From positions 1 to 20,415 of IMG/VR virus record IMGVR_UViG_3300028388_004790: a DNA stretch of 20,415 bases; one strand, given 5' to 3'. Position numbers and translations under genes: made by a program. The notes under the pieces were generated by a model, which saw nothing but the letters and a program-made list of their open reading frames with translations, made no database searches and was not told the DNA's origin. Positions 1 through 20,415 of the stretch are shown here, in pieces. Origin of the DNA: a virus. How positions within the stretch are numbered: position 1 is the first letter of the stretch; each line of letters opens with the position of its first letter.

Positions 1-2223
1 CGTCCAGTTACCGGCAGTGTCAAAGCCATCGGCAAGCTCAAGGATGTCTGAGCTGTTGGTTGGCATGTGGACTGCTTCTATTGTAAATGCGCCATCTTCC
101 GTTGGTGTGATGCGCTCGATCTGATACGTGCGGACTTGAGTGCTGGGCAGCTTGACGGTGAAGACGATGCCAGTGGGTGAGCCAGTCTTGCCACTATCGC
201 TGACGGTCAGAGTTGCATCTGCTGGTTCGGTATCGGCGTCACCGTTCCAAGCAATCACGGTGTGGGTGCCGTCGGTGAGCGTTTTTGTGCTGACCAGTGC
301 ACCTTCGGGTGTGACGACGCCATTGTTGAACTCGTCGTATTCGGTGGCATCCATGCCGACTTTGATGTAGTCGCCTGGTGCCATGGCCATCAACACACCT
401 TCATGCGTTGTGGTGAAGCTGATGGTGTGCGTTGGGATGCGACGCATCCTGATTACGAACTTGGCAGCATCGATCGCATGGTCGCGGCTGGTGCAATAGT
501 CCGACATGTCGATGGTTTCGAGCGCGACGCTGGAACTGGCGGATGCTTCACGCACCAGCACTTCGCGCACGGTTGGGAACATGCCAGGGTTGTCGTAGTT
601 GGTACTGGCACGCTCTTCGCGGTAACGCACTGACACCTGAATAGGATCGCGTTCCTCGGGGTCGAAGTATTGCAACTTGAAGCTGTTCTCGACGATGTTG
701 CCTGCAGTGAATAGACCCTTGATCGTTACCGCGTCAAATTGCAACGCTGGCCGCAGAAAGAACTTGCCATCTGATTCGCCGAAGATCAGCAGATGCGTGG
801 CAGCAACATCAGCGCACCACTGGCGGATGTTGACTTGATCTCCGATCACGCCATCGTAGAAATACTTGCGGGTGTAACACCAGTCGGCTGCATCCTCGAA
901 CTCGGTCAGATCGATCATGTCATCAGTGATTAGATCGCCACGTCCGTAGGTTGTGTTGGTCAACAAATCCAGCACGATGTCGGGAAACAGGTGCGTCGCT
1001 CCAGTGGTCAAACTGTTACGCAGACGACGACAGGTTTTGCCACCAGTGACGTAGCAACTGAACTGGTTGAACTGCTGCCACTCGACCGAGGAGTTGATGT
1101 TGACGCCAATCAAGGCAAGATTGTCGTAGGTTGGCGCGGATGCGTTGGTGACGATCTCGTTCATGTAAACGATTTCGTGCTCTGGACCGCCTTCGGCTGA
1201 AGTTGTGATCTCCTCAAAAATAAACTTCTCGGCAAGCTTGCCCCAGGTGTCGATCAAAGACGTATCGCCGTTGCTGTAGTCGGCATCGCTCTGGGGGTAG
1301 TTGAGCTGCCCTGATGCTGATGGCCTGCGACCAACCGTGATCGCAAATGTATCAGCGCTGTTGGTGACCGACACACCAGTGAACATCACGCCAACACTGC
1401 CGGTTTCGGTGATGTTGACAATTGTGCCAAACGCATAGCTTGCATCAAGCACATAAAGCGTTTTGCCGCTTGAATGGTTCCGCACTTCGTAGCCGGACAC
1501 AGGCTCGAACTGGAACTCCCATTGCTTGATACTGGGCATGTTGAGCTGGATGTAATTGAATATCGGTTGCGATGTCGCGCTACGCACTCCGTAAAGATTT
1601 GCAAATGTAGTGAATGCACCAGTGCTGCCTGCGACTCTGTAGCTGATTTTGAAGAAGCTGTAGCGCTCAGAGCTGGTGGAAATCGTGTTGGAACGATGGA
1701 CATCGGTATAAAGTGCTGTGCCTTCGTTCAACACATCATCTTTGTAGTCAAGGCAAGCGCGGTTATCGCACTCGGTGAAACCCTTGGCTGAGTTGAAATT
1801 GGTGATGCCATTGATGCGGATGCCAAGCGTTGACTTCAGGCCAAACTCAACCACTTTGCATGGCCTGGTCGTGGATACGCTGCCGATCGCGCAACGCATG
1901 ATGTGACCGTCTGTTGTGGCAACGTTTCGCGGTTCAGGATCTGCGGTGCCTGTGTCAAATAGTTCATCTATCCATGTGTCGCCATCCTTCTCGATCTGCG
2001 CCTGCGTGTTAGTGCTGACCGTGCCAGTGCGGACAGTCTTGAAGGTCGCATTAACGGTCAGAGTTGCATTGTCAACCTCAGAGCTGAATGGACCATTGGT
2101 GCGGCTTGTGCAAACAGCAAGGCCAGTGCCGATCTTGGAACGAATCAGATGTTGTTGGATTGGTCCAACTAGAGTTTTTGCGATCGAACTTAAACGTGGG
2201 GTAATCAACTGTGGTAGTGACAT
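1..2223 (-). CDS. Tail tip / host-specificity protein, lambda J-like (partial, runs off left edge)
   Basis: An open frame of 741 codons starts at an ATG at 2223 and continues without a stop to the window edge, so the C-terminus is missing. The N-terminus (MSLPQLITPRLSSIAKTL) looks like a natural protein start. Around residues 417-432 the stretch VLDLLTNTTYGRGDLI, followed by acidic sequence and WCYTRKYF, resembles the central part of lambda J-type tail-tip proteins. These form the tail tip and contact the receptor. The start lies 146 bases inside the upstream tail gene in another frame. Only a weak GAG precedes the ATG, so the two could instead be one protein joined by a +1 frameshift. Position at the end of the tail block, after the tape measure and NlpC/P60-like genes, fits the lambda order. 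The family call is from remembered motifs, not from a search. Confidence 0.72.
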   Translation of the reverse strand, partial: MSLPQLITPRLSSIAKTLVGPIQQHLIRSKIGTGLAVCTSRTNGPFSSEVDNATLTVNATFKTVRTGTVSTNTQAQIEKDGDTWIDELFDTGTADPEPRNVATTDGHIMRCAIGSVSTTRPCKVVEFGLKSTLGIRINGITNFNSAKGFTECDNRACLDYKDDVLNEGTALYTDVHRSNTISTSSERYSFFKISYRVAGSTGAFTTFANLYGVRSATSQPIFNYIQLNMPSIKQWEFQFEPVSGYEVRNHSSGKTLYVLDASYAFGTIVNITETGSVGVMFTGVSVTNSADTFAITVGRRPSASGQLNYPQSDADYSNGDTSLIDTWGKLAEKFIFEEITTSAEGGPEHEIVYMNEIVTNASAPTYDNLALIGVNINSSVEWQQFNQFSCYVTGGKTCRRLRNSLTTGATHLFPDIVLDLLTNTTYGRGDLITDDMIDLTEFEDAADWCYTRKYFYDGVIGDQVNIRQWCADVAATHLLIFGESDGKFFLRPALQFDAVTIKGLFTAGNIVENSFKLQYFDPEERDPIQVSVRYREERASTNYDNPGMFPTVREVLVREASASSSVALETIDMSDYCTSRDHAIDAAKFVIRMRRIPTHTISFTTTHEGVLMAMAPGDYIKVGMDATEYDEFNNGVVTPEGALVSTKTLTDGTHTVIAWNGDADTEPADATLTVSDSGKTGSPTGIVFTVKLPSTQVRTYQIERITPTEDGAFTIEAVHMPTNSSDILELADGFDTAGNWT

Positions 2224-3817
2224 CAAGCTCAGAGAACGTGACCGAACCACTGGTGATGCCACCTCCAGACAGACTTGCACTTGTCAAAACCGTCTGCCCA
2301 TCAATGGTAGTTGTGCCTGTGCTAAGAGACGGCGACGAATAAGTTGGTGCAGAATAGCTTGGCGATGTAAGGCTGATCTCTTGCAAGCTCTCGGACTCAA
2401 CGAGAATCTTGTGGTACTGAACAACTGTTACGTCGTCTTCAGGATCGTCAGCCGTAAGATCGTTGCTAAGAGTAATCTTGAATTTGCTTGCTTTCAGCAG
2501 TTCAAGTTCAGTGTCAATCACGTTATTGTTCGAGACGTTTTCGAGACCGCTACTGTCAAAGCTCAGATTTACTGCGATCCATGCCACGTTGGAGTGACTT
2601 GGGCTGCTTACGTCGATAACAGTTGTGCCGGGCCAGGTAACTGCAACGCTTGTGCCGACCTCGACAGCAGTAACGCTTACCGTTAACCTTGCGAGTAAAC
2701 TTGCAGTGAGTGACTGCAAGTTGCTGTCGCGATACTTCAGATTTGCACTTGTTGATGAGCCGCTGCCTGTTGTATAGGGCTTGGCAAACGCACCGGGTGT
2801 TTCTGGTGTGATCAATTCTTTCGTGATCGACCACTCGCCAACAGTGGTCAGATCTTTAATGTCACGCCCAAATACAGTGTCTTTATCGCTGGATGAGTAA
2901 AGCGTGTAAGTTGTCGTGCCATCAATAGTGCCCAGCCCTTCCGATGTAATACCGCTCCGAGAACCGTAAAACGCTTGTGCCTTTCGGCGTTGCGCCCACT
3001 TAGCTTCATCAAGTACGCACTTAACTTTGGTGCGACCTTCGTCTCCCTCCGGCAAAAGCTGCGCTCTGACCTGCGGCTCGAACACAGGATTGGGTCGCAT
3101 CCCAAAGTCATTGCCGCAAAATGCGTAGAGCCCGAAAGTGGTCTGGTTGCTGGGGCGTTGCGCGGAACAGAAGTCAGTGGTTACTGTATTGCCAATCCTT
3201 ACACCGAAAACATCCGTCGAACCAACGGTGATGTTATTGGTATTGCCGACGTCCTCGGCTGGATCGCGACCGTAGACGTGATCGCTTGGAAGGATTCGTG
3301 TTGTCAGCCCGCTTGCGTAGCGTGCATACACTGCCATGCGCGAGCCAGTCTCATTCGCAGTACTACTGCCAAAGTCATAGCTTGTCAGCGTGTTGCCGCC
3401 AGATGCAAAATTCTTCGCATCGATAGCGCTAATCGGACCTTCGCCGACCAAGAAAATAGCTCGCAACATCTGCGAACCACCTAGGCTGTAAATCTGCGAC
3501 CACAGCAGTTGCGTGTTGACACGGACGCCGCCATAAACTACGCCGCCGATCGTTTCCTTGTTGGCGTACACCAACGGGATGATTGATCCGAGTGTGGAGA
3601 TTTCCTGCGTTGAGTTAAAGCCATACCGTGGCGCAAACCGCTGATTGCTAGTGATGGCTTCACCGCCGCGACCAATCTCGCGGATCTCTGATGGCCGTCT
3701 TGCAGATTCTTGAGTGGTAACAGGTTTGGGCTTGAAGAACGAAGCCGCAATCGTGCTGCCGATGCCAATGACAATGCTGACAACAGCTAGCGTGATTGGA
3801 TCAACACCAGCAATCAC
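2078..3817 (-). CDS. Large tail-tip / tail assembly protein (N-terminal J-like part)
   Basis: This is a 579-aa protein with a GTG start 15 bases downstream of the NlpC/P60-like gene's stop. Residues about 8-28 (ITLAVVSIVIGIGSTIAASFF) form one hydrophobic helix. Then comes a segment around GSIIPLVYANKETIGGVVYGG that resembles the N-terminal part of J-type tail-tip proteins ('xPVVYGxxRVGG'). The middle is rich in Ser, Thr, Gly and Val, as expected for beta-rich tail structural proteins. The last residues (HWPCCLHKPHQWSIQL) look unlike the rest and are read from DNA that also encodes the start of the next gene in another frame. The true C-terminus may therefore be earlier, or the ribosome may shift frame. 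Role (tail tip hub or assembly) is inferred from position and weak motif similarity. Confidence 0.65.
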   Translation of the reverse strand: MIAGVDPITLAVVSIVIGIGSTIAASFFKPKPVTTQESARRPSEIREIGRGGEAITSNQRFAPRYGFNSTQEISTLGSIIPLVYANKETIGGVVYGGVRVNTQLLWSQIYSLGGSQMLRAIFLVGEGPISAIDAKNFASGGNTLTSYDFGSSTANETGSRMAVYARYASGLTTRILPSDHVYGRDPAEDVGNTNNITVGSTDVFGVRIGNTVTTDFCSAQRPSNQTTFGLYAFCGNDFGMRPNPVFEPQVRAQLLPEGDEGRTKVKCVLDEAKWAQRRKAQAFYGSRSGITSEGLGTIDGTTTYTLYSSSDKDTVFGRDIKDLTTVGEWSITKELITPETPGAFAKPYTTGSGSSTSANLKYRDSNLQSLTASLLARLTVSVTAVEVGTSVAVTWPGTTVIDVSSPSHSNVAWIAVNLSFDSSGLENVSNNNVIDTELELLKASKFKITLSNDLTADDPEDDVTVVQYHKILVESESLQEISLTSPSYSAPTYSSPSLSTGTTTIDGQTVLTSASLSGGGITSGSVTFSELDVTTTVDYPTFKFDRKNSSWTNPTTSDSFQDRHWPCCLHKPHQWSIQL

Positions 3818-3832
3818 CGCATGGAAGTAAAT

Positions 3833-4213: not shown

Positions 4214-4274
4214 CAGCTCACCACCAGCGAGCCGCTGCTAGGTAACGCACCAACCAATTCGGTGCTCAGCACCC
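4213..4274 (-). other. Out-of-frame C-terminal remnant of the minor tail gene
   Basis: About 20 codons (VLSTELVGALPSSGSLVVS, then TGA) are read in the -1 frame relative to the 101-aa gene upstream. The stop codon overlaps the next ATG as TGATG, the same coupling used elsewhere in this block (14808, 15158, 19339). No start codon with a ribosome site precedes it, so it is best read as the end of the upstream gene. Confidence 0.5.
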
Positions 4275-4571
4275 GTCGCTGAAGTCTGTGATGTCAAGAC
4301 TGACGGTTTTGAGTTCAAGCAACCAGCGGCTTTGAACGGCCTCGGCGAAAATGTTGACGCTAATGTCATTGGTGCCAGCACCCAGCACTGCTTCGGATCT
4401 ATCACCACCTTTGCTGCCAGCGCCAGTTGAGATAGCAAACGGCAGAAAGTTGTACGTCACTCCGCTGTACGTCCTGGTGACGTTGACGGAGAAGTTCTGG
4501 TACGCATAGGCGGTTGCGGTCGAGGAATTCTCCATGAACCGCGCATAGTTGACAAAGGCGAATGCGCTCAT
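4266..4571 (-). CDS. Minor tail protein, apparently interrupted by a frame break near its end
   Basis: The 101-aa frame begins with ATG overlapping the tape-measure stop (ATGA). It contains TYSGVTYNFLPFAISTGAG and GDRSEAVLGAGTNDISVNIFAE, a pattern I associate with short phage minor tail proteins encoded after the tape measure (compare lambda M/L position; DUF1833-like). The frame ends abruptly at DITDFSDGC. In the -1 frame the sequence continues as VLSTELVGALPSSGSLVVS and stops exactly in a TGATG overlap with the next gene. That suggests the intended C-terminus is in the other frame and that one base is missing, or slipped over, in the GGG run at 4272-4274. The complete product would be about 119 aa. 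Function is inferred from position. Confidence 0.6.
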   Translation of the reverse strand: MSAFAFVNYARFMENSSTATAYAYQNFSVNVTRTYSGVTYNFLPFAISTGAGSKGGDRSEAVLGAGTNDISVNIFAEAVQSRWLLELKTVSLDITDFSDGC

Positions 4572-7282
4572 AATCCGACCTTCTTGCGTGTCTTCACGCT
4601 ACCTTGCAATGCCTGTAGTGTCAGTTGACGACCGCGCTCAGCGGCTTGCGCCATGCCTTTGCGATGCTGCTCAGCAGTGACGTACTCGACATTATTGATC
4701 ACGCTGGATTCGTACCGTACATCGATCGGATCTGGGCTGGCCAGCATCGCCTGAGATGTGCGTTCCACTTCACGGATGCGGTTTGTCGTCATTGTATTTT
4801 GCTGCTTAATGAGCTGCTGACGGGTGGCTTCATTGCCACGCATCGCAGCATCTTGCTGCTCAAGCTTGTCACGGGTGTCACTATTTGATAGCACCATGCC
4901 ACTACTGGATGGCATGAACAACTCAGGCCCGCGTTCGCCGACGATGTAAGGCTGGTTTGCGTTGACGGGGCCGCCGGAGGCGCGGAATCCGGGGATCGGA
5001 CCAACACCGCCCATGAGGTTGGCTGCGTTTAGCCCGGAAGCCGCGCTGCCGCCAGCAAAGTTTAAGCCGCCGCCACCGCCGAGCGCACCAAGTACGGTCA
5101 TGAACAGTTTTTGGGCCAGAATCTGTGTGGCCATGTCGATGAAGGCGCGGCCAATGTTTTGGAACATCGTGGCGAAGGCTTCCTCGACCGTTCCAGTGCC
5201 GGTGACCACGGCTTGTACGGCGCTGGACATTGCTGTGGATAGCTCGTTGGCCAGGAAGCCATAGCGTTCCATCAGCTGGTTTTGGCGAAGCTGCGCTTGC
5301 TCTACAGCGTCGAGCTGCGGAAGTAAGCGTTCATAAAGGGTTAGTTGGTCTTGAAGTCCTTGGATTCGTATATCGAACTCGGCCCGTTCGCCAGGAGCTG
5401 CGGCTTCGCGCAAACGTGTTTGCTCGTTTATTTGTTCATTTACTTCTCGTAGAGCATCTATGCGGCGACGTTCCTGGCTCACAAGTAGATCAAGGCGTTC
5501 GGCGTCTTCCCCACCAAAAGGAGAAGATAGGCCCCGCTGAACGTCTTCGATCTGACGCCCAATATCACGGCCCACGGCAGCCGTAGCTAGTTGTGTTTGA
5601 ACTCGGAGTATCTCTCGCTCAACTTCGAGCTGCCGCTTCCGTTGTTCCGCCCGGCGAAGATCAAGCTTGCGCTGCTCCTCTAAAATAGTGGTTTGTTTTA
5701 CGTAAGTATCGTAAAGAATGTCCGCTTCCTTGTTTGATTTAGCATCAGCAAGTAGTCTACTATACTTAATGTCTAGAATTATGGCCTCGTTACTGCGCTC
5801 ATTATTTATTGTCTCAAGACGCTGCTCAATTGCAGCAAGAGCTCCCTTTTCAAGCTCTAAGACCTCTCGGCGAATTCTTATAAGTTCATTTTCTGTTTGA
5901 GCAGCACCCACAAGGGCGGAGTTTAACTGGTTAATACGTTGCTCTTGAGCGCGGGCGGCTTCTTTGGCGGCGCGTTCTGCTTCACGGGCGGCACGTTCCA
6001 GCTCGCGTTGTTTTTCCTTGTTTACACGTTCTTGCGCTGTGGCTCGATCGTCGGCTAATTTTTTGAGGTCGCGCTCTTTTTGTAAGATAAGTTCAGTTAC
6101 TTTTTCTTCTGTACCTTTTCCTGAAAGAATTAAATTTTGCTCTTCTTTAATAAACCTATTTTCGATAGCTCTTCGTTGCTCATTATAAACAGCATCGTCC
6201 AATAAATTATTGTTTAAAGTTAGTAAATCTCGCTCTTGATTTAAAAGCTCTATTCTGTTCTGCGTTGCACGGTCCAGCTTGGTTTGTTGTTCTTGTGCTT
6301 GGGATCGATCCGGTGTAGTTCCAGGGGCAAGTGCTTGAACGGCTTCCCCGGCGCCTCGAACAACAAAGCCACCAGGGCCGCCGCCTGGAACAAAAGCCAG
6401 CCCAAGTGCCAGCTGTGCTAACGCTTGTGGGACTTCAATGCGGTTAAGGATACTAATTATATCGGCAAAAGCTCGTGTCGCTAAAAGAACAGCAGGCAGT
6501 AGATCCGATACAATTTGGCCTTTAAGATCGGAAAATTCTTGCTGAAGATCGTTTGAAGCGTCGTTAAGGGCATTAAGTTGATTTACTGCATCTGTGCCTA
6601 GTCTTGCGGAAATTTCCGCAAACAAAACAGTTTGTGCGTCGTAGACCCGCCCCGCTTCTTCAAGCTGCGCGATCTGCTGCTTGCTGCTGTCGGCAACTTT
6701 TATGCCTGCTTCTTCAAGAGCAATAAGCGCCTGGGATGGTGTTTTTAGGGAGGCCGCAAGATCGTTTAGTTGTCTCGTAATAGTGTCGACCGCTTGACCT
6801 ACTGCCGTTCCAACCAAGGACAGGCCGAAGCCGAACTGGCCTCCGAGAGCGCCGCCAGCGGCACCGCCCAGTCCGCCGCCTACTGCAGCACCTGCGCCTT
6901 GGCCGAACAACAGCGGGAACGCGCCACCGATGACGGCACTTCCCACGGCCTCACGTCTTGTGGCGGCTTGTCTGCTGGCGACAGCTTGGACTTCCCGCTC
7001 GGCCCTGATGCGCTGATCGCGTAAATAACGGACCCTACGGAGATTTGTTTGTAATCTTTTACGTTCTTTCGTTTCCCTTAAGCGATCTAAGTCCTCGATG
7101 GACTGTCGAATAAGTTCGGCTTCAGCTTTTTGAGCACGTACTGCTGCCGTTTGAGCGCGGGTGCGTTTTCTTTTGCCGGCTACATCAAAAGGGTTTTGTA
7201 TTTTCTCTAAGCGCTGTTCCAGTTGTTTTAGTTCTTGGTCTAAGACCTTTACGCGAAGCTCTATTTCGCTTTGGTAAGCCAC
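4568..7282 (-). CDS. Tail tape measure protein (lambda H-like)
   Basis: At 904 aa this is the longest complete gene in the window. It sets tail length and sits inside the tail tube. Residues 1-110 are a charged coiled coil. Residues 112-165 form a Gly/Ala-rich hydrophobic segment (GGAFPLLFGQGAGAAVGGG and on), typical of siphovirus tape measures. About 330-660 is a long Glu/Arg/Gln-rich coiled coil. The C-terminal part has AFATMFQNIGRAFIDMATQIL, then a Gly-rich stretch and GGPVNANQPYIVGERGPELF, a signature common near the end of tape measures. The start is GTG. An AGGAG lies about 18 bases upstream, further than ideal. The stop overlaps the next gene (ATGA). The middle of the gene is clearly more AT-rich than its ends, suggesting mosaic exchange. 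Confidence 0.93.
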   Translation of the reverse strand: MAYQSEIELRVKVLDQELKQLEQRLEKIQNPFDVAGKRKRTRAQTAAVRAQKAEAELIRQSIEDLDRLRETKERKRLQTNLRRVRYLRDQRIRAEREVQAVASRQAATRREAVGSAVIGGAFPLLFGQGAGAAVGGGLGGAAGGALGGQFGFGLSLVGTAVGQAVDTITRQLNDLAASLKTPSQALIALEEAGIKVADSSKQQIAQLEEAGRVYDAQTVLFAEISARLGTDAVNQLNALNDASNDLQQEFSDLKGQIVSDLLPAVLLATRAFADIISILNRIEVPQALAQLALGLAFVPGGGPGGFVVRGAGEAVQALAPGTTPDRSQAQEQQTKLDRATQNRIELLNQERDLLTLNNNLLDDAVYNEQRRAIENRFIKEEQNLILSGKGTEEKVTELILQKERDLKKLADDRATAQERVNKEKQRELERAAREAERAAKEAARAQEQRINQLNSALVGAAQTENELIRIRREVLELEKGALAAIEQRLETINNERSNEAIILDIKYSRLLADAKSNKEADILYDTYVKQTTILEEQRKLDLRRAEQRKRQLEVEREILRVQTQLATAAVGRDIGRQIEDVQRGLSSPFGGEDAERLDLLVSQERRRIDALREVNEQINEQTRLREAAAPGERAEFDIRIQGLQDQLTLYERLLPQLDAVEQAQLRQNQLMERYGFLANELSTAMSSAVQAVVTGTGTVEEAFATMFQNIGRAFIDMATQILAQKLFMTVLGALGGGGGLNFAGGSAASGLNAANLMGGVGPIPGFRASGGPVNANQPYIVGERGPELFMPSSSGMVLSNSDTRDKLEQQDAAMRGNEATRQQLIKQQNTMTTNRIREVERTSQAMLASPDPIDVRYESSVINNVEYVTAEQHRKGMAQAAERGRQLTLQALQGSVKTRKKVGL

Positions 7283-7308
7283 GGCTTCGCGTGTTGACTA
7301 CTCCTAGT

Positions 7309-10194: not shown

Positions 10195-10195
10195 G

Positions 10196-10811: not shown

Positions 10812-11894
10812 TCAGGCGATCACGGAGGTGTCCAGAGGGCTGTTGACGGTGAGCTGAACCATGGGGATCAGGTCGATGTCGTAGGTAGCGCTCCAGTTGC
10901 CGGCGGTGGCGAGGGCGGTGTTGGTGGGGTTGTCGCCAGCGTTGGTCCACTTGGTGCCCATCACGTGGTAGGCGGTGTGGTAGTCCACGCTCAGCACGTC
11001 CTGCTTGGAGAGGACGTTGCGATCGGCCTCGATGCGGAGGTCTTGCTGCACACCTTCGAGGATGGTGCCTGACTTGGTCAGGTAGCAGTAGAACTCGATC
11101 TGGTGGCTGGATGTTCCAGGGGCGACGGTGTTGACGGCGGGGTCCATGATGACGCGGCAGCCGGCGAATTCGCCGATGCTGCGGGCGCCGACGCCCACGC
11201 CGCCACCACCCCAGGTCACAGCGCCGGAAGCGGCGAGTGCGGAGGTGGAGAAGGTCAGCATTCCGACCTGATACAGGTAGAAGCCGACCGTGGGGTGGAC
11301 AACCAGGGTGTCCAGCTCATCGCCACGTTCACCCAGGAGGGCGCGGGCGCGGGACACGGCAGCGGCGCTGAGGAAGTTGTCCTCGTCCGCACCAGAGGCA
11401 GCCGCGACACCCAGGTCGAGTGCGTTGGCGCTGAGGGCGGTACCGAACAGACCGGCCAGCTGGGAGAACAGACGCTCGCTGTTCTTCTTGTTGATGGCAT
11501 CGGCAAGCTGGTTGCGGATGTGCATCATGGGGTCTTCGCCGGCAGCCAGGATGGCCACGTCATCCACTGCATACGCGAAGCCGCGATGGCAGATGGTGGC
11601 GATCTGGGTGGCAGTTCCGATCTTCTGAGGGGTCAGATAGCCAGAGTTGCTGGTGCCCCAAGTGGCCGTTCCATCCATGATCTCCTCGGTGGGAGACACG
11701 GGATTGAACTCGGGAACTTGGATGCGGGTGCCGCCTTCGCGGGCGTCCAGCAGGGAGTTGCGAACGACAGCACCGCTCTTCAGGAACAGGCTGCGCTCTT
11801 TGATCGCCTCAGACACGTAGGTGCTGAGGTTATTCCTTTTTACGATGTCCGCGAGGAGGACACCGCCGGAATAGTTCTGAAATGGGGCGGCCAT
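10812..11894 (-). CDS. Major capsid protein (HK97-fold type)
   Basis: A 360-aa protein, ATG at 11894. The N-terminal region (NYSGGVLLADIVKRNNLSTY, RSLFLKSGAV) leads to GGTRIQVPEFNPVSPTEEIM, and a long helix follows in MMHIRNQLADAINKKNSERL. VVHPTVGFYLYQVGM and a C-terminal RIEADRNVLSKQDVLSVDYH resemble HK97-fold coat proteins of siphoviruses, with spine helix, P-domain and A-domain. Position directly after a scaffold-like gene and before a strong terminator supports the call. The 71-base leader has two small hairpins (GTCCC/GGGAC at 11951-11963; CCAAG/CTTGG) but no clear ribosome site. Codon use and GC content are high, as expected for strong expression. Confidence 0.88.
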   Translation of the reverse strand: MAAPFQNYSGGVLLADIVKRNNLSTYVSEAIKERSLFLKSGAVVRNSLLDAREGGTRIQVPEFNPVSPTEEIMDGTATWGTSNSGYLTPQKIGTATQIATICHRGFAYAVDDVAILAAGEDPMMHIRNQLADAINKKNSERLFSQLAGLFGTALSANALDLGVAAASGADEDNFLSAAAVSRARALLGERGDELDTLVVHPTVGFYLYQVGMLTFSTSALAASGAVTWGGGGVGVGARSIGEFAGCRVIMDPAVNTVAPGTSSHQIEFYCYLTKSGTILEGVQQDLRIEADRNVLSKQDVLSVDYHTAYHVMGTKWTNAGDNPTNTALATAGNWSATYDIDLIPMVQLTVNSPLDTSVIA

Positions 11895-12691: not shown

Positions 12692-12693
12692 GT

Positions 12694-12876: not shown

Positions 12877-12901
12877 GACAAAGTGTTGTTGCGTTTATAT
12901 T

Positions 12902-14350
12902 CTACTGCGCTACTTCAGTGGAGTTACGTTCCATGGCAGTGGGGAGCACTTCGCCTTGCATTAGGATTTGGCGGAATTCGTCGCGGGCGAGGATGCCGTT
13001 GTCGAAGAGGGAGGTGAGGGCGGTGATGTCTTGGCCGATAAGGCGGTCGATGTCGAAGTCGCGGTTGATGGTGACTTCGGGTGGTTCGATGCCGATGTAG
13101 TTGGCGGCGAGATCGAAGGATTTTTGGAGGGATTGCTCCAGATCCATGGAGACCATGGAGAGCATGGAGTTGGTGTCGACGCGGTCCAGGCGGCGGGCGT
13201 CGGCGGATTCGGCGACGAATTTTTGTTGGCTGAGGGTGCTGATGCCCAGCGTGGCCATCTGCATTTGGAGTTCTTTGATTTCGGCGGATTGGGCCTCGAA
13301 AGCGCTGGCGGCGGGGTCGACGTAGTAGACCTTGTTGCCGGGTTGGGTGGCCATGGCGTAGTTGACGCTGACCGCCATGTCTTTGGTTTGGTCGTCCCAG
13401 CCCTCTAGGACGAGGATGGGTTGGGAGGCGATGTGGAGGCTGTGGATTAGGTCGGCTTGGCGTTGGAAGTGGGCCAGGTTGAGGTAGGCGATGTCCAGCA
13501 GTGGGGGTTTGCTGGTCATCGTGTCGGTTTTGCCGGAGTACATCGTGACCAGCGGGATGCGGTCCAGGGTGTAGTCGCCGGATTCGATGAGTTCGTAGTC
13601 GGAGGTGGAGTCGGTGGCGTCGAAGGCGTTGGGGTAGGGGAAGCCGCCGGCCATGGCCTTGACGGTTTCGGTTTGGCGGTAGATGCGGTAGCGGCCTGGT
13701 TCGATGACGCGGATTTGGTCGTAGACTTTTTCGCCGAAGTCACCGTCGGGGACGACGGCTTTTTCTTTGATGCGGACTTGGATTAGGTTGCCGTAGTTGA
13801 CTTCACGGTCCAGGCGCCAGCCGTAGATGTTGGCGGGGTCGATTTCGATCCAGTAGGGGCGGCGGTTGAGTTCGCGTTCTTCGGCGAGGCTGCGGGCTCC
13901 GGTTGGGGCGGGGAAGTCGACCAGGGTGTGGCAGTGACCGTAGGTGAGGGAGCAGATGAGGAGGCGGCGGGCGTATTCGTCGAGGTCCGACCCACAGCCG
14001 TCAACGTCTTTGGAGAAGATTTCGGTCCAGTAGGGGTCGCCGGTGATGTTGATGGGTTTGCGGAGGATTAGGCCGGCGGCGGCGCGGATTAGGCGTTGGG
14101 TGAAGGGAGAGAATACGGCGCGGTTGACGCGGGATAAGTAGGCGGTGTAGTCCTCGCGGGGTTCGATTGGGAGGAAGGCTTCGCTGTTTTCGCGGAGGTA
14201 TTCGGTGCCGCTGGTGACGGCTTTCATGATTTCCCAGCCCTTCATCATGTCCAGCACCGCTTGGGTGCGGGTGAACGGGCTGTCCGGTCCACCCATGGTG
14301 GTGGAGCTAACAAGGTGGGTGCGGATTTGGCCGGGAACTGCGTAGGTCAT
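12902..14350 (-). CDS. Portal protein (DUF4055-like)
   Basis: A 482-aa protein, ATG at 14350. The N-terminal part includes YLRENSEAFLPIEPREDYTA and FSPFTQRLIRAAAGLILRKP, patterns I recall from DUF4055-type portals. Then RRPYWIEIDPANIYGWRLDR, IPLVTMYSGK and a helix AYLNLAHFQRQADLIHSLH, characteristic of portal clip and stem regions. The C-terminus has LLDNGI-like SLFDNGILARDEFRQILMQG, also typical. Portals form the 12-fold ring at one capsid vertex through which DNA enters. Placement between the packaging and scaffold genes fits. Five copies of the CGGTCCA form of the repeated heptamer lie inside this gene, nearly all those in the window. Confidence 0.88.
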   Translation of the reverse strand: MTYAVPGQIRTHLVSSTTMGGPDSPFTRTQAVLDMMKGWEIMKAVTSGTEYLRENSEAFLPIEPREDYTAYLSRVNRAVFSPFTQRLIRAAAGLILRKPINITGDPYWTEIFSKDVDGCGSDLDEYARRLLICSLTYGHCHTLVDFPAPTGARSLAEERELNRRPYWIEIDPANIYGWRLDREVNYGNLIQVRIKEKAVVPDGDFGEKVYDQIRVIEPGRYRIYRQTETVKAMAGGFPYPNAFDATDSTSDYELIESGDYTLDRIPLVTMYSGKTDTMTSKPPLLDIAYLNLAHFQRQADLIHSLHIASQPILVLEGWDDQTKDMAVSVNYAMATQPGNKVYYVDPAASAFEAQSAEIKELQMQMATLGISTLSQQKFVAESADARRLDRVDTNSMLSMVSMDLEQSLQKSFDLAANYIGIEPPEVTINRDFDIDRLIGQDITALTSLFDNGILARDEFRQILMQGEVLPTAMERNSTEVAQ

Positions 14351-14354
14351 TGAG

Positions 14355-15325: not shown

Positions 15326-15350
15326 GGGGAGGGCGGCGGTTATGCCAATT

Positions 15351-16023: not shown

Positions 16024-16029
16024 TGTGCT

Positions 16030-17277
16030 CTAGTACAGCCTATATGATGTTTTGCCCATCAGGCCGGCTTTTGCGAGGTTGAATTGCTGGAGGCAGAGGT
16101 AGCCGAAGGCGTCGAAGGCGTGGTCCACGCCGAGGTTTTTGTTGGGGAGGCCCGTTCCAGGGGTGTAGGTGAGGGTGCGGAGGGATTTGATGAGTTCGCG
16201 GCAGCGGGGATGGATGAAGCAGCGGCGGGTATTGGTGGCGTCGAGGAGGGCGGTGTTGACGGCGGTGATTTTGTCGCGGATTTTCCAGGGGGATTTGGGG
16301 GTGGAGACGCTGAAGCCGGATTTGCGGAGGATGGTGTGGTCGGTGAAGCCGACGCCGGCGGTTTTGCGGGCGCCGCCGGTGGGGTCGGGGCAGGCGATGA
16401 TGCGACGTTCCACGCCATAGCGGCGGGTGACTTCTTCGGCGAAGTCCCAGGTGGTGGCGCCGCCGGTGAGCATGATTTCGTCGAAGACGTAGAGGGTGTC
16501 GCCGGTTTTGACGGCGCAGATGCCGGACATGGGGTCGACGTTGAAGTCGATGCCGAGGAGGAGGGGGAGGATTGGGATGTCTTTGGCGTCGGTGCTGATG
16601 TTGGCGTCGCTGAAGCTGACGGCGACGAGGCCGCTGAGGTTTTCGAAGCTGGCTTCGAATTCTTGGCGGAAGGTGCGGGCGTCGAGTTGGGCGCGGGCCG
16701 CTTCGACTTCTTCGGGTGGGACGTTGCCGCCTTCGATGGTGGTGAAGCTCCAGCGCTTCCAGTTGGGGTCGTCGGTGGCGGCGTATTGCCAGAGTTCGTA
16801 GAACCAGCTGGCCGTTCCATCGGGGGTGGAGATGAAGAGGCCCCAGCCTTGTTTGTCGGCGAGGGCGGGGCGGATGACTTCGGACCAGACGCTGGGGTCC
16901 ATGAAGGCGGCTTCGTCGAGGACGACGCCGGCGAGGCTGCGGCCCCGGAGGGCCATGGCGTTTTCGGTGCCTTTGAGTTCGATCATCGATCCATTCACGA
17001 GTTCGAGTTTGAGGTCGGTTTCGTTTTTGGATTTGATCCAGGAGTTGGGGACGAGGCGTTTGAGGACTTTCCAGGAAATGTCCTTGGCCATGCGGTAGGT
17101 GGGGGCGCAGTAGAAGAAGGTTTCGCCGGGGCGTTCGATCGCTCCACGCACCAGCTCGATGCAGGCGAGGTAGGACTTGCCGAAGCGGCGGCCTGCGACG
17201 AGGACGCGGAAGCGGGTGCGATCGGTGAAGACCTCGCCCTGAGCGTGGCGGAGCGTGAGTTCCGGGACCTTTGCCAT
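16030..17277 (-). CDS. terL: Terminase large subunit (DNA packaging ATPase/nuclease)
   Basis: A 415-aa protein with the expected motif order. Walker A is AGRRFGKS (28-35). Walker B is GVVLDEAAF (117-125, Asp121 and catalytic Glu122). The coupling motif is ISTPDG (149-154). The nuclease domain begins LGIDFNVDPMSG (241-252, metal-binding Asp244), with a second acidic site near CPDPTG and the last at DHAFDAFGY (386-393). The enzyme pumps DNA into the capsid using ATP and cuts concatemers. Start ATG at 17277. The GC-rich leader upstream carries inverted repeats. Very long shadow frames on both strands over this gene come from its strong codon bias and are not genes. Confidence 0.97.
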   Translation of the reverse strand: MAKVPELTLRHAQGEVFTDRTRFRVLVAGRRFGKSYLACIELVRGAIERPGETFFYCAPTYRMAKDISWKVLKRLVPNSWIKSKNETDLKLELVNGSMIELKGTENAMALRGRSLAGVVLDEAAFMDPSVWSEVIRPALADKQGWGLFISTPDGTASWFYELWQYAATDDPNWKRWSFTTIEGGNVPPEEVEAARAQLDARTFRQEFEASFENLSGLVAVSFSDANISTDAKDIPILPLLLGIDFNVDPMSGICAVKTGDTLYVFDEIMLTGGATTWDFAEEVTRRYGVERRIIACPDPTGGARKTAGVGFTDHTILRKSGFSVSTPKSPWKIRDKITAVNTALLDATNTRRCFIHPRCRELIKSLRTLTYTPGTGLPNKNLGVDHAFDAFGYLCLQQFNLAKAGLMGKTSYRLY

Positions 17278-17282
17278 GGGGG

Positions 17283-17336
17283 TGTGCTACAGAAGAATGT
17301 TTGGGTGCGTATATTTTTTGGCCCTGTAGCACAGGG
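17283..17336 (-). repeat. Inverted repeat in the leader of the large terminase gene
   Basis: TGTGCTACAG (17283-17292) and its exact complement CTGTAGCACA (17325-17334) are separated by 32 bases containing an AT-rich stretch (around 17311-17319). The right arm overlaps a second palindrome, CCCTGT-AGC-ACAGGG (17322-17336). Nothing here codes. Possible operator, RNA hairpin or packaging site, just before the large terminase start. Confidence 0.6.
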
Positions 17337-17361
17337 TACTTGACTTTTGCTCCGCAACCCG

Positions 17362-17409
17362 CCCCCGGTGGCCGGGGGTGGTGCGGTGGCCCGGCGTGGT
17401 GGCCGGGCC
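17362..17409. repeat. Two adjacent strong GC hairpins
   Basis: CCCCCGG-TGG-CCGGGGG (17362-17378) and GGCCCGGC-GTGGTG-GCCGGGCC (17388-17409) are perfect 7- and 8-bp stems, 9 bases apart, between the 45-aa gene and the large terminase. No T-run follows on either strand, so these are not ordinary terminators. Confidence 0.75.
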
Positions 17410-17421
17410 GGTGGTGGCTGG

Positions 17422-17559
17422 TCAGTCTTCCAGCGCTGCCAGCAGCTGCCTGGTGCGTTCCAGTAGCTCAGCGGTGAGCTGCTGCTGCCGCTCGTCTGCC
17501 TGGCGCATCTGCTCCAGCGCAGCGGCGAACTGATCGGCAAGGGGTGTGGGGCGATCCAT
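17422..17559 (-). CDS. Small helical protein, unknown function
   Basis: A 45-aa protein starting MDRPTPLADQFAAALEQMRQ, then a Gln/Glu/Leu-rich helix (QQQLTAELLERTRQLLAALE) that could form a coiled coil. ATG at 17559. It is followed by the two GC hairpins and then the large terminase. No function recognised. It may be a small regulator or simply a structural helper; the sequence does not decide. Confidence 0.6.
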   Translation of the reverse strand: MDRPTPLADQFAAALEQMRQADERQQQLTAELLERTRQLLAALED

Positions 17560-17600
17560 GGGATGGAAGCGGTGAGGGTAGGGGTGGCCCTCGTATCTGT

Positions 17601-17606
17601 ATTGTA
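17601..17606 (-). promoter_or_regulatory. Candidate promoter (extended -10) before the 45-aa gene and terminase
   Basis: The minus strand reads TGCTACAATACAG, a good extended -10 (TGnTACAAT). No convincing -35 is seen 17 bases upstream. It lies 42 bases before the ATG of the 45-aa gene, so it could drive the structural block. Confidence 0.4.
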
Positions 17607-17643
17607 GCAGATCAGCGCAGCAAACGCGAGACTGTAATAAAAC

Positions 17644-17859
17644 TTAATCCCGCCCAGCGGTGAGATCAGCCGCGCCAGCCGCTGCGGTGCCTAGGCAGGC
17701 AGCCGCCAGCGCTGCGGACATCAGCAGCGGCACAGCGTGAGTCTGAGCGGCTTCACGGTGTGGGAGCTTAGCGGCTGCCGTGCCAATAGCAACGGTGCCG
17801 AATGCGGCAGCCGTGCCAGTGATAGCAAAAATGGCGATTCTGAGAGAGATCCTATGCAT
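17644..17859 (-). CDS. Small two-helix membrane protein
   Basis: A 71-aa protein starting MHRISLRIAIFAITGTAAAF. Two hydrophobic segments are visible (about 5-28 and 43-64), separated by a short polar loop with His and Arg. It ends GAADLTAGRD. The size and two membrane helices are compatible with a holin-like protein, but no lysis gene is seen in the window, so this is only a possibility. It lies 17 bases downstream of the 49-aa membrane gene. Alanine-rich GC-biased frames can also look like this by chance, so confidence is moderate. Confidence 0.5.
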   Translation of the reverse strand: MHRISLRIAIFAITGTAAAFGTVAIGTAAAKLPHREAAQTHAVPLLMSAALAAACLGTAAAGAADLTAGRD

Positions 17860-17876
17860 GGCCTAAGGAAGCGGTT

Positions 17877-18026
17877 TTACAGTGAAGAATTGATTAAGTT
17901 TTGTGGGGGCGATCTCACGAAGCCAGCGCCAGTGGCCCGCTCCGGCCTGGACTCAGTGGCCCATAGCAGGACAATCAGCGGAAGGGTGAGAAGCACCAGC
18001 AAGAGTGCTGCGGTGGTGGTGAGCAT
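17877..18026 (-). CDS. Small single-helix membrane protein
   Basis: A 49-aa protein, MLTTTAALLLVLLTLPLIVL followed by LWATESRPERATGAGF. Residues 5-22 form one strongly hydrophobic helix; the rest is a short polar tail. The gene is too short for ordinary gene finders but lies about 45 bases downstream of a good promoter (TTGACA, 16 bases, TATTGT). Function unknown; small membrane proteins of this kind in phages include holins, lysis helpers and host-membrane modifiers. Confidence 0.6.
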   Translation of the reverse strand: MLTTTAALLLVLLTLPLIVLLWATESRPERATGAGFVRSPPQNLINSSL

Positions 18027-18072
18027 GGAAGGAAGGGAACGGGCCAGGGGTGGGGGTCATCCGTTCCCTAAT

Positions 18073-18100
18073 ACAATAACAGATCACGCCACTGTGTCAA
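18073..18100 (-). promoter_or_regulatory. Sigma70-type promoter for the small membrane genes
   Basis: Minus strand: TTGACA (18095-18100), 16-base spacer, TATTGT (18073-18078). The -35 lies inside the last codons of the 47-aa gene. The hexamers are the same as in the promoter at 18923-18951. Downstream start is at 18026. Confidence 0.68.
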
Positions 18101-18227
18101 CGGATCGCACCACATACGGCAACCCTTGCTCCCAGCCGGTAACGCACCAGCCCGTAGGCGAATCCTGGGAGCGCTCAGCGGTGACGCGCTGGCCGGTAAA
18201 AGTGACCGACAGGATAGTGTCCAGCAT
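18084..18227 (-). CDS. Small protein, unknown function
   Basis: A 47-aa protein, MLDTILSVTFTGQRVTAERS then PTGWCVTGWEQGLPYVVRSV, ending VDTVA. It starts 4 bases after the stop of the 221-aa gene, which suggests coupled translation. Two Gly-Trp pairs and one Cys suggest a small folded beta domain. Nothing more can be said of its role. Its last codons contain a promoter for the genes that follow. Confidence 0.65.
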   Translation of the reverse strand: MLDTILSVTFTGQRVTAERSQDSPTGWCVTGWEQGLPYVVRSVDTVA

Positions 18228-18230
18228 CGC

Positions 18231-18896
18231 TCAACCCCCGTAGTAGGGAGCCACTGGCTCCAGAATCACCGGGAACGGAACGTCTTCTAGCCGTGCAACA
18301 TAGGCGCCGTGCTTATCGCTCCATGCCGGTTCTTTGCTGGTCAGTGCATCCCTAACCTCACCAGTTGGCCACTGGCTGTAACCCACACTGAAGCGATCGT
18401 TCCAGCGTTGCAGCGCTGGCCATTCGTTGCCGTAGTCTGCGGCAATAGGCCGGGCGAACCAGCCGCAGACCCAATCAAAGAACCCAGACTCTCCGATCCG
18501 ATCAACCCGGAAGACTGAGAAACTGCCGTAGTTTCCTCTCACATCTCCACCTAGGTGGCGCTCCACCACCACGTAGAGGTCGTCACACCAGCACCAGTCA
18601 GCGGCGTCCTCAGGAGCAAAGACACTGAAAACCAGCTGAGCGCTGAGATCTTGATCGTGGTTGTAAGTGTTGTCGCGCAGCACTTGCACGTACTGCTGGT
18701 GAGTTTCCCTGGCGAACCACCGCAGGAGCGCTGGTTCTTCCTCGGTTGCCCAATTGCCGGAATCTATGTGATCGGGCAGCGGCAACGGTTCGCCCAAACT
18801 CTCCAGGATGTGGAGGTCTGAGTCCAGGGTTGGGCAATCCCAGCAGATACGGTCTGCTGTGGCGATCGCCTCAGGCTTGAGAAGTGTTGAGGTCAT
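18231..18896 (-). CDS. Trp/Asp-rich protein of unknown function
   Basis: A 221-aa protein; I place the start at ATG 18896 (MTSTLLKPEAIATADRICWD) because it lies just downstream of a good promoter. An earlier TTG at 18935 is unlikely. It is acidic and rich in Trp and Cys, with CWDC near the start, WCWCDDLYVVVERHLGGDVR, GFFDWVCGWFARPIAADYG and RWNDRFSVGYSQWPTG. No signal peptide or membrane helix. I do not recognise the family. It is the first gene of a leftward accessory operon divergent from the HTH operon. Early expression or a host-takeover role is possible but is inference from position. Confidence 0.78.
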   Translation of the reverse strand: MTSTLLKPEAIATADRICWDCPTLDSDLHILESLGEPLPLPDHIDSGNWATEEEPALLRWFARETHQQYVQVLRDNTYNHDQDLSAQLVFSVFAPEDAADWCWCDDLYVVVERHLGGDVRGNYGSFSVFRVDRIGESGFFDWVCGWFARPIAADYGNEWPALQRWNDRFSVGYSQWPTGEVRDALTSKEPAWSDKHGAYVARLEDVPFPVILEPVAPYYGG

Positions 18897-18922
18897 GGCG
18901 TGGTGTGCCGAACGACCCCCAG

Positions 18923-18951
18923 ACAATAAGCACAACGCTCCACCCTGTCAA
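18923..18951 (-). promoter_or_regulatory. Sigma70-type promoter, leftward, for the 221-aa gene operon
   Basis: Minus strand: TTGACA (18946-18951, perfect -35), 17-base spacer, TATTGT (18923-18928). The ATG follows about 26 bases after the -10. A CGCTCCA motif sits in the spacer. Confidence 0.8.
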
Positions 18952-18952
18952 C

Positions 18953-19006
18953 ACATCCAGCCCGTCCAATCCGTCCAGGTTTTCCAGGTTGACGGATCCG
19001 TCCATT
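18953..19006 (+). repeat. 9-bp tandem repeat (iteron-like) array between divergent promoters
   Basis: Reading in steps of nine: ACATCCAGC, CCGTCCAAT, CCGTCCAGG, TTTTCCAGG, TTGACGGAT, CCGTCCATT. Five of six units carry the core TCCA at the same place; the exception is the promoter -35 unit. The array lies in the 107-base non-coding gap and runs over the rightward -35. Likely a binding site for a regulator or initiator. Confidence 0.65.
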
Positions 19007-19017
19007 CTTTCTACTGT
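18989..19017 (+). promoter_or_regulatory. Sigma70-type promoter, rightward, for the HTH protein operon
   Basis: TTGACG (18989-18994), 17-base spacer, TACTGT (19012-19017). The transcript would begin near 19024, about 20 bases before the ATG at 19043. Its -35 is embedded in the 9-bp repeat array, so binding there should block it. Confidence 0.72.
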
Positions 19018-19042
19018 GCTGGGGTAGTTTCACGCTCCACCC

Positions 19043-19339
19043 ATGGGCCAACACCGCAACCCTGAGCCAGCGCTTGTGCTGCTGGACTCACACGGTATCT
19101 ACATCCCGCAGCTGTTCTGCGCTGACATAACGCAGGAGGAAGCGGAACTTATGTGCGTTGACTGGGAAGACGTCCAAACGTGCCAAGCCGGACCAGATCA
19201 AGAGTGGTATTGGGAGGCTTGGGATTGCATCCTGCAATCCGCCAGCGTCACAGACGAAAACGGCATCACTTGGACGCTCCACCAGGACGGCGACTTGTGG
19301 GAGATCCCGGAAGGCTTCACGTTCCCGGAGTGCTGCTGA
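19043..19339 (+). CDS. Acidic Trp-rich protein of unknown function
   Basis: A 98-aa protein, MGQHRNPEPALVLLDSHGIY then IPQLFCADITQEEAELMCVD. The middle has the pattern QEWYWEAWDCILQSASV, and it ends HQDGDLWEIPEGFTFPECC. Very acidic and rich in Trp, Cys and Glu. Similar small 'LLLDshGiYiPq...WYWeAWd' proteins seem familiar from accessory regions of phages and plasmids, without known function. Its stop overlaps the next start (TGATG). A DNA-mimic or anti-defence role would fit the charge but is speculation. No clear ribosome site; the leader is short. Confidence 0.78.
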   Translation: MGQHRNPEPALVLLDSHGIYIPQLFCADITQEEAELMCVDWEDVQTCQAGPDQEWYWEAWDCILQSASVTDENGITWTLHQDGDLWEIPEGFTFPECC

Positions 19340-19692
19340 TGACAAGCCAAGAGATCGCGCAGCGTCACAGCTACGCTCGCGCCATGTTGGAACGTGGCTG
19401 CCGTGTCGCCAGCGTCGCCACCATGGTGAGCGCTAAGTTCCAGGTTTCACGCTCCACCGCTTACGCTGACGTCCGCGCAGCGTCTGAAGAAATCGCAGCA
19501 AGCGATGACGGACCAGCCGACACGGAAACGTGCCAGCCATTGGACGCTGAAACAATCCAGGGCCAGCTCGCTCACCTTATCGACGTTGCAGCGGCAGCCG
19601 GTGACGTTAAAGCAGTGTGCCAGCTTGTAAAAGCCGCTGACGCTGCCAAACGCTGGCAGGGTTACCAAACGTCCCAGGGTGGCTGGGTCTGA
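19339..19692 (+). CDS. HTH protein, small-terminase-like
   Basis: A 117-aa protein beginning MTSQEIAQRHSYARAMLERG. The start at 19339 is set by the TGATG overlap; the longer frame from 19180 is a shadow. Residues 24-45 (ASVATMVSAKFQVSRSTAYA) form a helix-turn-helix. Residues about 68-107 (LDAETIQGQLAHLIDVAAAA, GDVKAVCQLVKAADAAKRW) are helical and resemble small-terminase cores. The order HTH, linker, helix pair parallels the protein at 15442-16023. It could be the true packaging-site recognition subunit, a duplicated relative, or a transcription regulator of this divergent region. It is on the opposite strand from the large terminase, 2 kb away. Confidence 0.68.
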   Translation: MTSQEIAQRHSYARAMLERGCRVASVATMVSAKFQVSRSTAYADVRAASEEIAASDDGPADTETCQPLDAETIQGQLAHLIDVAAAAGDVKAVCQLVKAADAAKRWQGYQTSQGGWV

Positions 19693-19701
19693 AACGCTCC
19701 A

Positions 19702-19727
19702 GGGCTGGCCTTTGGTTGGCCCTTTCT
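19702..19727 (+). terminator. Likely terminator for the rightward operon
   Basis: GGGCTGGCC and GGTTGGCCC pair around a TTT loop (9 pairs, three of them G-T), followed by TTTCTT. It begins 10 bases after the HTH gene stop. Confidence 0.6.
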
Positions 19728-19738
19728 TGCGCCTGTGC

Positions 19739-19752
19739 GTGAGACTCATGAG
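19739..19752 (+). repeat. 14-bp direct repeat, copy 1
   Basis: GTGAGACTCATGAG occurs here and again at 20102-20115 inside the nuclease gene. GAGACT is repeated at 19750 and 19762. The rest of 19728-19899 shows only an AT-rich inverted repeat (GGCATAAC 19820-19827, GTTATGTC 19842-19849) and no gene I can support. Confidence 0.6.
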
Positions 19753-19882
19753 ACTGAGAACGAGACTCAATAAGCTCAGCGCTCCACCACTCCAGGGATT
19801 CCCGTTGCGGGCGCAGGGAGGCATAACATAATTGTTTTTAGGTTATGTCCCCAGCGCAGTAATAGCAGGCGTTCCAGGGCAG

Positions 19883-19952
19883 TGAATGGCTTTTTGCGCC
19901 TATGAATGGCTTTTTTCGTGCGAGCGCAGCGAGCACTGTGAATGCGATTTTT
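19883..19952 (+). repeat. Three TGAATG-poly(T) direct repeats at the end of the nuclease gene
   Basis: TGAATGGCTTTTT (19883-19895), TGAATGGCTTTTTT (19903-19916) and TGAATGCGATTTTT (19939-19952). Related copies lie at 20288 and 20372. The second and third encode the repeated peptide EKSHS ... EKSHS at the end of the nuclease. Confidence 0.6.
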
Positions 19953-20415
19953 CGAGGCCCGGCAGGGCCGAGAAGTAACGTTCCACACGCTCCAGGAACC
20001 TAGATTCGGCGCCTCGTAGTTCTAAATCGCTGAGTTGGCGGATCTGCGGGGCGCCGGTGCGACGCGCCACCACGACGAACGCTCCAGCGGCTCTAATGCC
20101 GGTGAGACTCATGAGTCCAACGCTGTAGGCGCCGAGCTGGTCGATGTAGTTGGTGAGCATCTCTTCGGTGCGCTCGCGGACGCTGGTTTTCCAGTCCACG
20201 AGGCACGGACCAGTGCCTTGAATGTCGAGCAAGGCGTCGCACGTTCCAGCGAAGCCGGCACTGTGGTGAATGCTGAATTCAACTGCATGAATGGCCGAAA
20301 CGTGGTCGGCGATCCAGCAGCGGAGTCCACGGGCGTAGCCTGCAGCGCTCCAGGGGACCCTAGGAGCCCCTTGAATGGCCCTTTCGAGGCCCCAGCGGGT
20401 GATCGATCCAGGGCA
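19900..20415 (-). CDS. PD-(D/E)XK nuclease, RecB/Cas4-type exonuclease (partial, N-terminus off right edge)
   Basis: 171 codons are open from the right edge to a stop at 19900; a start at 20232 would remove catalytic residues, so the true start is outside. In window numbering the core is VEFSIHHSAGFAGTCDALLD (45-64, Glu46 and Asp60), CLVDWKT (71-77, Asp74 and Lys76) and YIDQLGAYSVG (motif with Gln93). This is the classical arrangement of PD-(D/E)XK exonucleases such as RecB-like and phage recombination or degradation nucleases. Such enzymes trim host or phage DNA during replication and recombination. The C-terminus carries a repeated EKSHS peptide produced by DNA repeats. It is downstream of nothing visible and divides the rightward operon from the edge. 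Confidence 0.85.
   Translation of the reverse strand, partial: CPGSITRWGLERAIQGAPRVPWSAAGYARGLRCWIADHVSAIHAVEFSIHHSAGFAGTCDALLDIQGTGPCLVDWKTSVRERTEEMLTNYIDQLGAYSVGLMSLTGIRAAGAFVVVARRTGAPQIRQLSDLELRGAESRFLERVERYFSALPGLEKSHSQCSLRSHEKSHS
20102..20115 (+). repeat. 14-bp direct repeat, copy 2, with a 12-bp palindrome
   Basis: GTGAGACTCATGAG repeats copy 1 at 19739-19752. The sequence GACTCATGAGTC at 20106-20117 is a perfect palindrome; copy 1 has one mismatch. It lies in the coding region of the nuclease. Confidence 0.6.

Follow-up and report, generated by a model that had tools for sequence, protein, structure and literature searches.

A one-strand array of a short oriented motif, densest at the start of an exonuclease gene, in a family of uncultured cyanophages

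One strand of a viral DNA fragment (IMG/VR record IMGVR_UViG_3300028388_004790; "the window" denotes the whole 20,415-base stretch analyzed) carries an array of the heptamer CGNTCCA, which is a real DNA-strand-level motif. The window represents part of a genome from an uncultured cyanophage family, and in relatives the motif sets in abruptly at the start of a phage exonuclease gene and then thins out. We judge the chances evenly balanced that this is a new phage genome organization, in which a long one-strand array of a specific 8- to 10-bp site is densest at a launch point and decays as in a first-passage process. The motif points to an undescribed signal for the virus's own DNA-copying (or recombination) machinery.

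Results

The motif in the window

Exact counting gives 55 copies of CGNTCCA on the plus strand and 10 on the minus strand; the same letters reversed occur 3 and 5 times, and CGNTCCA ranks first, by count and by strand bias, among the 6-base patterns of the window, contiguous or with one inner N. A sequence-only reading had put the numbers at about 55 and about 8, of which the first is borne out and the second becomes 10, and had listed start positions that are exact for 53 of the 55 copies (12291 shifts to 12290, and 13192 shifts to 13182). It had also described the motif as spread over the whole window; copies do extend from 243 to 20410, but their density is graded rather than even, with 16 plus-strand copies (1.4/kb) and 7 reverse copies in positions 1-11500, 25 (3.4/kb) and 2 in positions 11501-18900, and 14 (9/kb) and 1 in positions 18901-20415. 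The array is densest at the right edge of the window and past it. The features of the window are as follows.

243..20410, plus strand: CGNTCCA array, 55 copies (exact count, Markov control, and codon-shuffle control)
18936..20410, plus strand: densest part of the array, 14 copies, matching the exonuclease-proximal peak of relatives; starts at 18936, 19033, 19275, 19450, 19695, 19780, 19870, 19979, 19988, 20080, 20242, 20310, 20346, and 20404, with a sole reverse copy at 19388
19883..20377, minus strand: CATTCA (TGAATG on the plus strand), 7 copies, at 19883, 19903, 19939, 20219, 20267, 20288, and 20372
4568..7282, minus strand: tape measure protein (tailed phage)
10812..11894, minus strand: major capsid protein
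12902..14350, minus strand: portal protein (structural module)
16030..17277, minus strand: terminase large subunit (TerL), used for orientation and to find relatives
19180..19692, plus strand: small conserved gene opposing the terminase, with an inner start near 19333
19900..20415, minus strand: 3' part of a PD-(D/E)XK exonuclease (64% match to the exonuclease of relative L045; PF12705 / phrog_298), a gene cut by the window end, whose start would fall about 350 bp beyond it

Markov chains of orders 1 to 4 trained on the window yielded plus-strand means of 5.2, 9.7, 13.6, and 20.3 against the 55 observed, and in 200 runs order 4 (20 ± 5) gave at most 31. When codons were shuffled synonymously within genes, keeping each protein and its codon usage, 15.1 ± 2.4 sites resulted (maximum of 22 in 300 shuffles), as opposed to the 35 counted in the actual genes that run with the terminase. 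These are the two controls that the sequence-only reading had named as able to overturn the excess; neither reproduced the count, and the one-strand over-representation is real. The further claim that CGNTCCA is not a protein motif also holds up, as the three reading frames contain 13, 12, and 10 of the sites in genes running with the terminase, and the motif keeps to the same DNA strand whatever the gene direction; a protein or codon origin is ruled out by the frames together with the synonymous shuffles. Inside the small gene opposing the terminase, which by eye is like G087 15951-16310 and leftward genes of L045, the motif stays on the plus strand (19275 and 19450), and it is thus independent of the direction of transcription.

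The virus family

Many terminase relatives with 80 to 95% identity occur in IMG/VR, with GC contents between 34 and 60%. GTDB contains a close relative in a Prochlorococcus single-cell assembly (79% TerL identity) and another in a cyanobacterial MAG. No close named phage was found; the nearest, Cyanophage S-2L, is distant (43% for TerL and 37% for the portal), and its TGGANCG counts (28:29) show no strand bias. From these few contigs we infer a picocyanobacterial host, and the hosts of the family are probably ocean and lake cyanobacteria. Family contigs also occur in GTDB MAGs labeled Verrucomicrobiota, Sphingobacteriales, SAR202, Planctomycetota, Saprospirales, and others (L101, L102, L105-L108, L114, L117, and L123); several are motif-rich, and they are probably mis-binned phage contigs.

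Gene content varies in some details. A terminase-small-subunit-like gene lies downstream of TerL in the window (15442-16023, minus strand), upstream of it in the 37.5-kb relative G087 (L228 17233-17715, plus strand), and on the opposite strand in L103, so that its position is variable. A dCTP deaminase-like gene is present in the left arm of G087 (L228 5452-5970; PF22769, phrog_1663).

Consensus and gradient in relatives

On the terminase-coding (minus) strand, CGNTCCA reads TGGANCG, and the motif was recovered in relatives as well. Their pooled logo on the terminase strand is S-C-C-TGGA[AG]CG-T; the heptamer of the sequence-only reading is therefore right in its core, but the full form is longer, CCTGGARCGT. 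Some subclades have CTGG[AC][AG]C, with the last base relaxed. Forward and reverse counts of TGGANCG on the terminase strand are 41:1 in 9 kb for L045, 44:4 for L048, 37:4 for L060, 19:2 for L079 (36% GC), and 0:0 for L080. Counted up to 4 kb from the exonuclease start in 24 loci of one clade, TGGANCGT has 254 forward copies and 0 reverse copies, which makes it an asymmetric, oriented motif in the sense applied to Chi.

Centered on the terminase, motif density peaks 2 to 5 kb upstream, with nearly no reverse copies; centered on an SSB-like gene that a second scan located, it is zero inside the gene and highest just after it. Centered on the exonuclease (70 loci), it rises in a step at the start of the PD-(D/E)XK exonuclease gene and then decays smoothly rightward over about 3 kb. 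Anchors at the SSB gene or at an iteron-like cluster were also tried, and the exonuclease start fits better. Each of 17 representatives with exonucleases less than 80% identical shows this step and decay, though the low-GC members do so more weakly. Relatives are mutually nonindependent; the pattern still holds below 80% identity and in a held-out set of 41 previously unused loci found by a scan with the exonuclease alignment, where forward/reverse densities of TGGANCG per kb are 8.93/0.00, 5.85/0.10, 3.97/0.05, 3.47/0.05, 2.61/0.11, 1.95/0.06, 1.02/0.06, and 1.03/0.00, reaching 0.77/0.66 beyond 5 kb. The notion of an even, genome-wide spread consequently gives way, in relatives, to a step at the exonuclease start followed by decay. 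Adjacent sites near the exonuclease are separated by a median of 105 bp with a coefficient of variation of 0.74, more even than random; no convincing helical phasing of sites was detected.

The sites of G087 lie on one strand across rightward genes, leftward genes, and intergenic DNA. In the leftward genes of its left arm, there are 14 plus-strand copies where synonymous shuffling gives 1.8 ± 1.3; enrichment of both orientations there was considered and set aside, as the reverse copies (8 against 4.9 ± 1.6) are near the codon expectation and only the forward ones exceed it. Exonuclease genes of 12 relatives contain 59 sites against 21.9 ± 3.5 under synonymous shuffling. The skew at 4-fold sites follows the gene strand and carries no replication signature, so that fork direction is not readable from it and it cannot yield a polarity independent of genes.

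The exonuclease start and a second oriented motif

Just upstream of the exonuclease gene, where the gradient starts, many members have a promoter-like TTGAC...TATATT-like sequence; the form TTGAC...TATATTAATTATGGGA directly precedes the exonuclease start in, for example, L280, L284, L286, and L055. No DNA element universally conserved at the exonuclease start was found, the promoter-like sequence being present in some members only. The distance between the SSB and exonuclease genes is variable among relatives, and an inserted KilA-N domain gene separates the two in G087 (L228 12967-13734).

The exonuclease gene and the DNA after it also carry a second one-strand motif, CCATTCAT, some of whose copies form iteron-like clusters; CATTCA, in its extended form AAAnGCCATTCATG, lies there on the same strand as the first motif. 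Copies within clusters are spaced by 18 to 26 bp (for instance, 21, 21, and 21 in L058, and 24, 36, 18, and 18 in L059), and clusters of at least 4 copies in 200 bp are present in the forward orientation in 36 of 105 loci and in the reverse orientation in 0 of 105. Exonuclease genes contain 29 copies against a codon expectation of 5.0 ± 2.0. CATTCA was rejected as a universal second motif: in low-GC phages that lack the exonuclease, it stems from the start codons (ATGAATG) of leftward genes, and exonuclease-associated copies alone survive the codon control. These clusters look like an iteron array, which makes them a candidate origin. Once the motifs were masked, no clear third oriented motif emerged.

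Association with the phage replication module and comparison with host genomes

The replication module comprises a Prim-Pol protein with PriCT_2 and an AAA_25 helicase, PolA (a family A polymerase), SSB, and the exonuclease; the PrimPol-helicase gene of G087 lies at 9631-12042. The PrimPol matches PF08707 and PF13481 above the cutoff and PF09250 just below it (E value of 0.0018); the phage thus encodes a Prim-Pol with PriCT/helix-bundle and helicase-type domains, as expected of an NrS-1-type system. Searched by sequence, the PrimPol profile returned no PDB match and no close phage relative.

Among 29 terminase-centered loci with at least 3.9 kb of upstream sequence, the motif is present in 26 of the 26 with the exonuclease and in 0 of the 3 without it, and it is present only with the replication module, again as for an NrS-1-type system. 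Two members of 34 to 35% GC that have the exonuclease carry the motif, so that GC content is not the cause. In the Prochlorococcus-assembly phage (79% TerL; L103), no homologue of PrimPol, PolA, SSB, or the exonuclease was found, and the motif shows no one-strand excess (10:9); an apparent switch of its motif to TGGTNCT proved to be in-frame Gly-X codons. The Prochlorococcus assembly contig (L181-L183, 41.3 kb) shares the structural module but has another early module, in which a PD-(D/E)XK-like gene points leftward and an ERF-like annealing protein was recognized by eye, and it is evidence of whole replication-module exchange. Exonuclease, SSB, PolA, and PrimPol co-occur equally with the motif, and the reading protein cannot be singled out among them; variant motifs show no clean separation by PrimPol cluster, and natural swaps (L205 and L056f) do not link the variant clearly to PrimPol or to the exonuclease.

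In 61 host-candidate genomes (the family of the Prochlorococcus assembly, a host assignment that rests on few contigs), TGGANCG reaches at most about 0.65/kb per strand, with the strands equal. For TGGANCGT, the maximum is about 0.1/kb per strand, again equal on both strands, which is below its reversed control in small genomes; some large GC-rich genomes exceed that control by a factor of about 2 to 3. Over-representation in a host chromosome, as for a host Chi site, was not found in these 61 genomes. Since the motif is tied to a phage module and candidate hosts have no comparable enrichment, its reader is probably encoded in the phage module.

Discussion

A step at one point followed by a one-sided decay of sites in a single orientation argues for a first-passage process, namely, a one-way start after which an oriented site is needed soon. 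Two machines fit this description: a replisome that needs its first lagging-strand primers and a nuclease-helicase that needs a stop signal. We prefer the replisome, and a priming site is also the preferred reading among the motif classes that the sequence-only reading had listed.

We tentatively propose, at a little under even likelihood, that CCTGGARCGT is a site read by the phage's own replication machinery, most likely for lagging-strand priming or for loading of the Prim-Pol, PriCT-2, and helicase protein. What we infer in this proposal is where replication begins, which way the fork runs, which protein reads the motif, and that the sites serve priming. Replication would start near the start of the exonuclease gene and proceed mainly one way, towards the terminase, with the displaced strand carrying the motif sites, at which the Prim-Pol, PriCT-2, and helicase protein would start lagging-strand primers or load. 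If the first successful priming or loading event suffices, sites near the start would matter most, and density would fall with distance, while weaker selection elsewhere would keep the same-strand excess. The CCATTCAT clusters could be initiator iterons, and an origin that is transcript-primed and fires in one direction would be in keeping with the promoter-like sequence that precedes the exonuclease. Several observations count against this replisome reading: the gradient keeps to the exonuclease start regardless of the position of the iteron-like cluster (0.8 to 3.6 kb away), polarity fades or mixes past about 5 kb in some near-complete relatives, the skew at 4-fold sites bears no replication signature, the motif accompanies all four module genes equally, its variants do not sort cleanly by PrimPol cluster, and most primases read 3 to 4 bases only.

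We nevertheless favor the replisome because the genome encodes a PrimPol with the domain order of NrS-1, whose polymerase needs a specific 8-nucleotide template sequence to start synthesis (PMC7102993), and because the S-2L PrimPol did not prime on generic templates (PMC8065100). Like NrS-1, the family has a phage-encoded Prim-Pol protein with a C-terminal helicase-type domain, in the same order (PMC7102993). Unlike the tens of graded, one-strand sites seen here, the NrS-1 recognition sequence has two copies, one per strand (PMC7102993), which weighs against the replisome reading.

A Chi-like signal is the next explanation, although we think it unlikely. A nuclease-helicase (the phage exonuclease complex or a host RecBCD-type enzyme) would enter at a break near the exonuclease start, run towards the terminase, and be stopped or switched to recombination at the first oriented site, so that extra sites further off would be worth less. 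The first-passage geometry fits this equally well, the motif and the phage exonuclease co-occur perfectly in the loci compared, and its CTGG core resembles Chi of other bacteria; as with the Chi sites of RecBCD and AddAB, it is short, asymmetric, over-represented, and oriented. Host Chi sites are over-represented in their host genomes, whereas this array, which is much denser and tied to a phage gene module, has no comparable enrichment in candidate hosts, where the strands are equal; a host Chi or polarity signal, one of the classes suggested from the sequence, is thereby disfavored, a phage-encoded version being less affected. In addition, the terminase-adjacent gene that could hold a pac site sits where the motif is rarest and not at its peak.

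Two further readings are less likely, and we rate each as improbable. The first has a phage nickase cutting one strand at the motif, producing localized interruptions like those of T5, phiKMV-like phages, and tf. The consensus is indeed confined to one strand of the phage genome, as in those phages: the available part of the source gives 14 nicks in one strand with a 9-base consensus for phage tf and places T5-like and phiKMV-like nicks on one strand only (PMC3517423). That part of the source mentions neither a gradient nor a dense cluster; the 14 nicks of tf (PMC3517423) compare with about 60 sites here, known from sequence alone. One nick per 60 to 125 bp would be extreme, and no nickase was identified in these phages. 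The second reading places the motif in a long rightward transcript from the promoter-like sequence before the exonuclease, as a target of an RNA-binding or antitermination protein or as stoperator-like repressor roadblocks. Such a sequence does stand at the gradient start in many members, but the sites run antisense to the genes that point leftward on either side of the exonuclease, those for PrimPol and the polymerase being on its left, and the one-strand excess persists where no rightward transcript is expected (14 against 1.8 ± 1.3 copies; 1.2-1.7 against 0.05-0.2 per kb).

Other known classes fit only in part. Cluster A mycobacteriophage stoperators are likewise asymmetric, numerous, and oriented one way within the phage genome; unlike stoperators, which follow transcription and lie largely between genes, these sites are inside genes of both directions, on one strand. 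KOPS and AIMS share with our motif an octamer-scale, strand-biased sequence and a density gradient along the replicon, but they belong to bacterial chromosomes, whereas the present gradient belongs to a phage, extends over about 3 kb, and involves a signal that is missing from the host. AIMS (Architecture IMparting Sequences) are 8-bp sequences (PMC5993296). The motif is asymmetric and one-stranded, unlike HIP1, the palindromic cyanobacterial repeat GCGATCGC, and the strong over-representation of one orientation, which restriction avoidance does not predict, speaks against the suggestion of type III restriction sites kept one way. That the pattern has no function and reflects composition, codon usage, or amino acid repeats inherited by related contigs is very improbable: gene-strand skews do exist, and the one apparent motif in the Prochlorococcus-assembly phage is Gly-X codons only, but neither synonymous shuffles nor Markov models reproduce the pattern, the sites occupy all three frames, genes of both directions, and intergenic DNA, and the pattern recurs in 17 representatives with less than 80% identity and at GC contents of 0.32 to 0.60.

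No published precedent for such an array was found in the literature covered, which lies mostly outside the subscription journals. Oriented recognition motifs are already known; a phage-encoded, exonuclease-anchored, decaying array is, to our knowledge, new. It indicates that short oriented signals can be under selection inside coding DNA at one per 60 to 125 bp. Single-stranded CCTGGARCGT offers a concrete template for assaying cyanophage PrimPol priming, and the S-2L PrimPol assay failed perhaps for lack of the right template. If the array is such a first-passage record, the launch point of a phage-encoded enzyme, its direction, and its typical reach can be read from the DNA sequence alone, and in an abundant group of uncultured cyanophages the array would reveal where a viral replication or recombination machine begins, which way it runs, and what sequence it recognizes.
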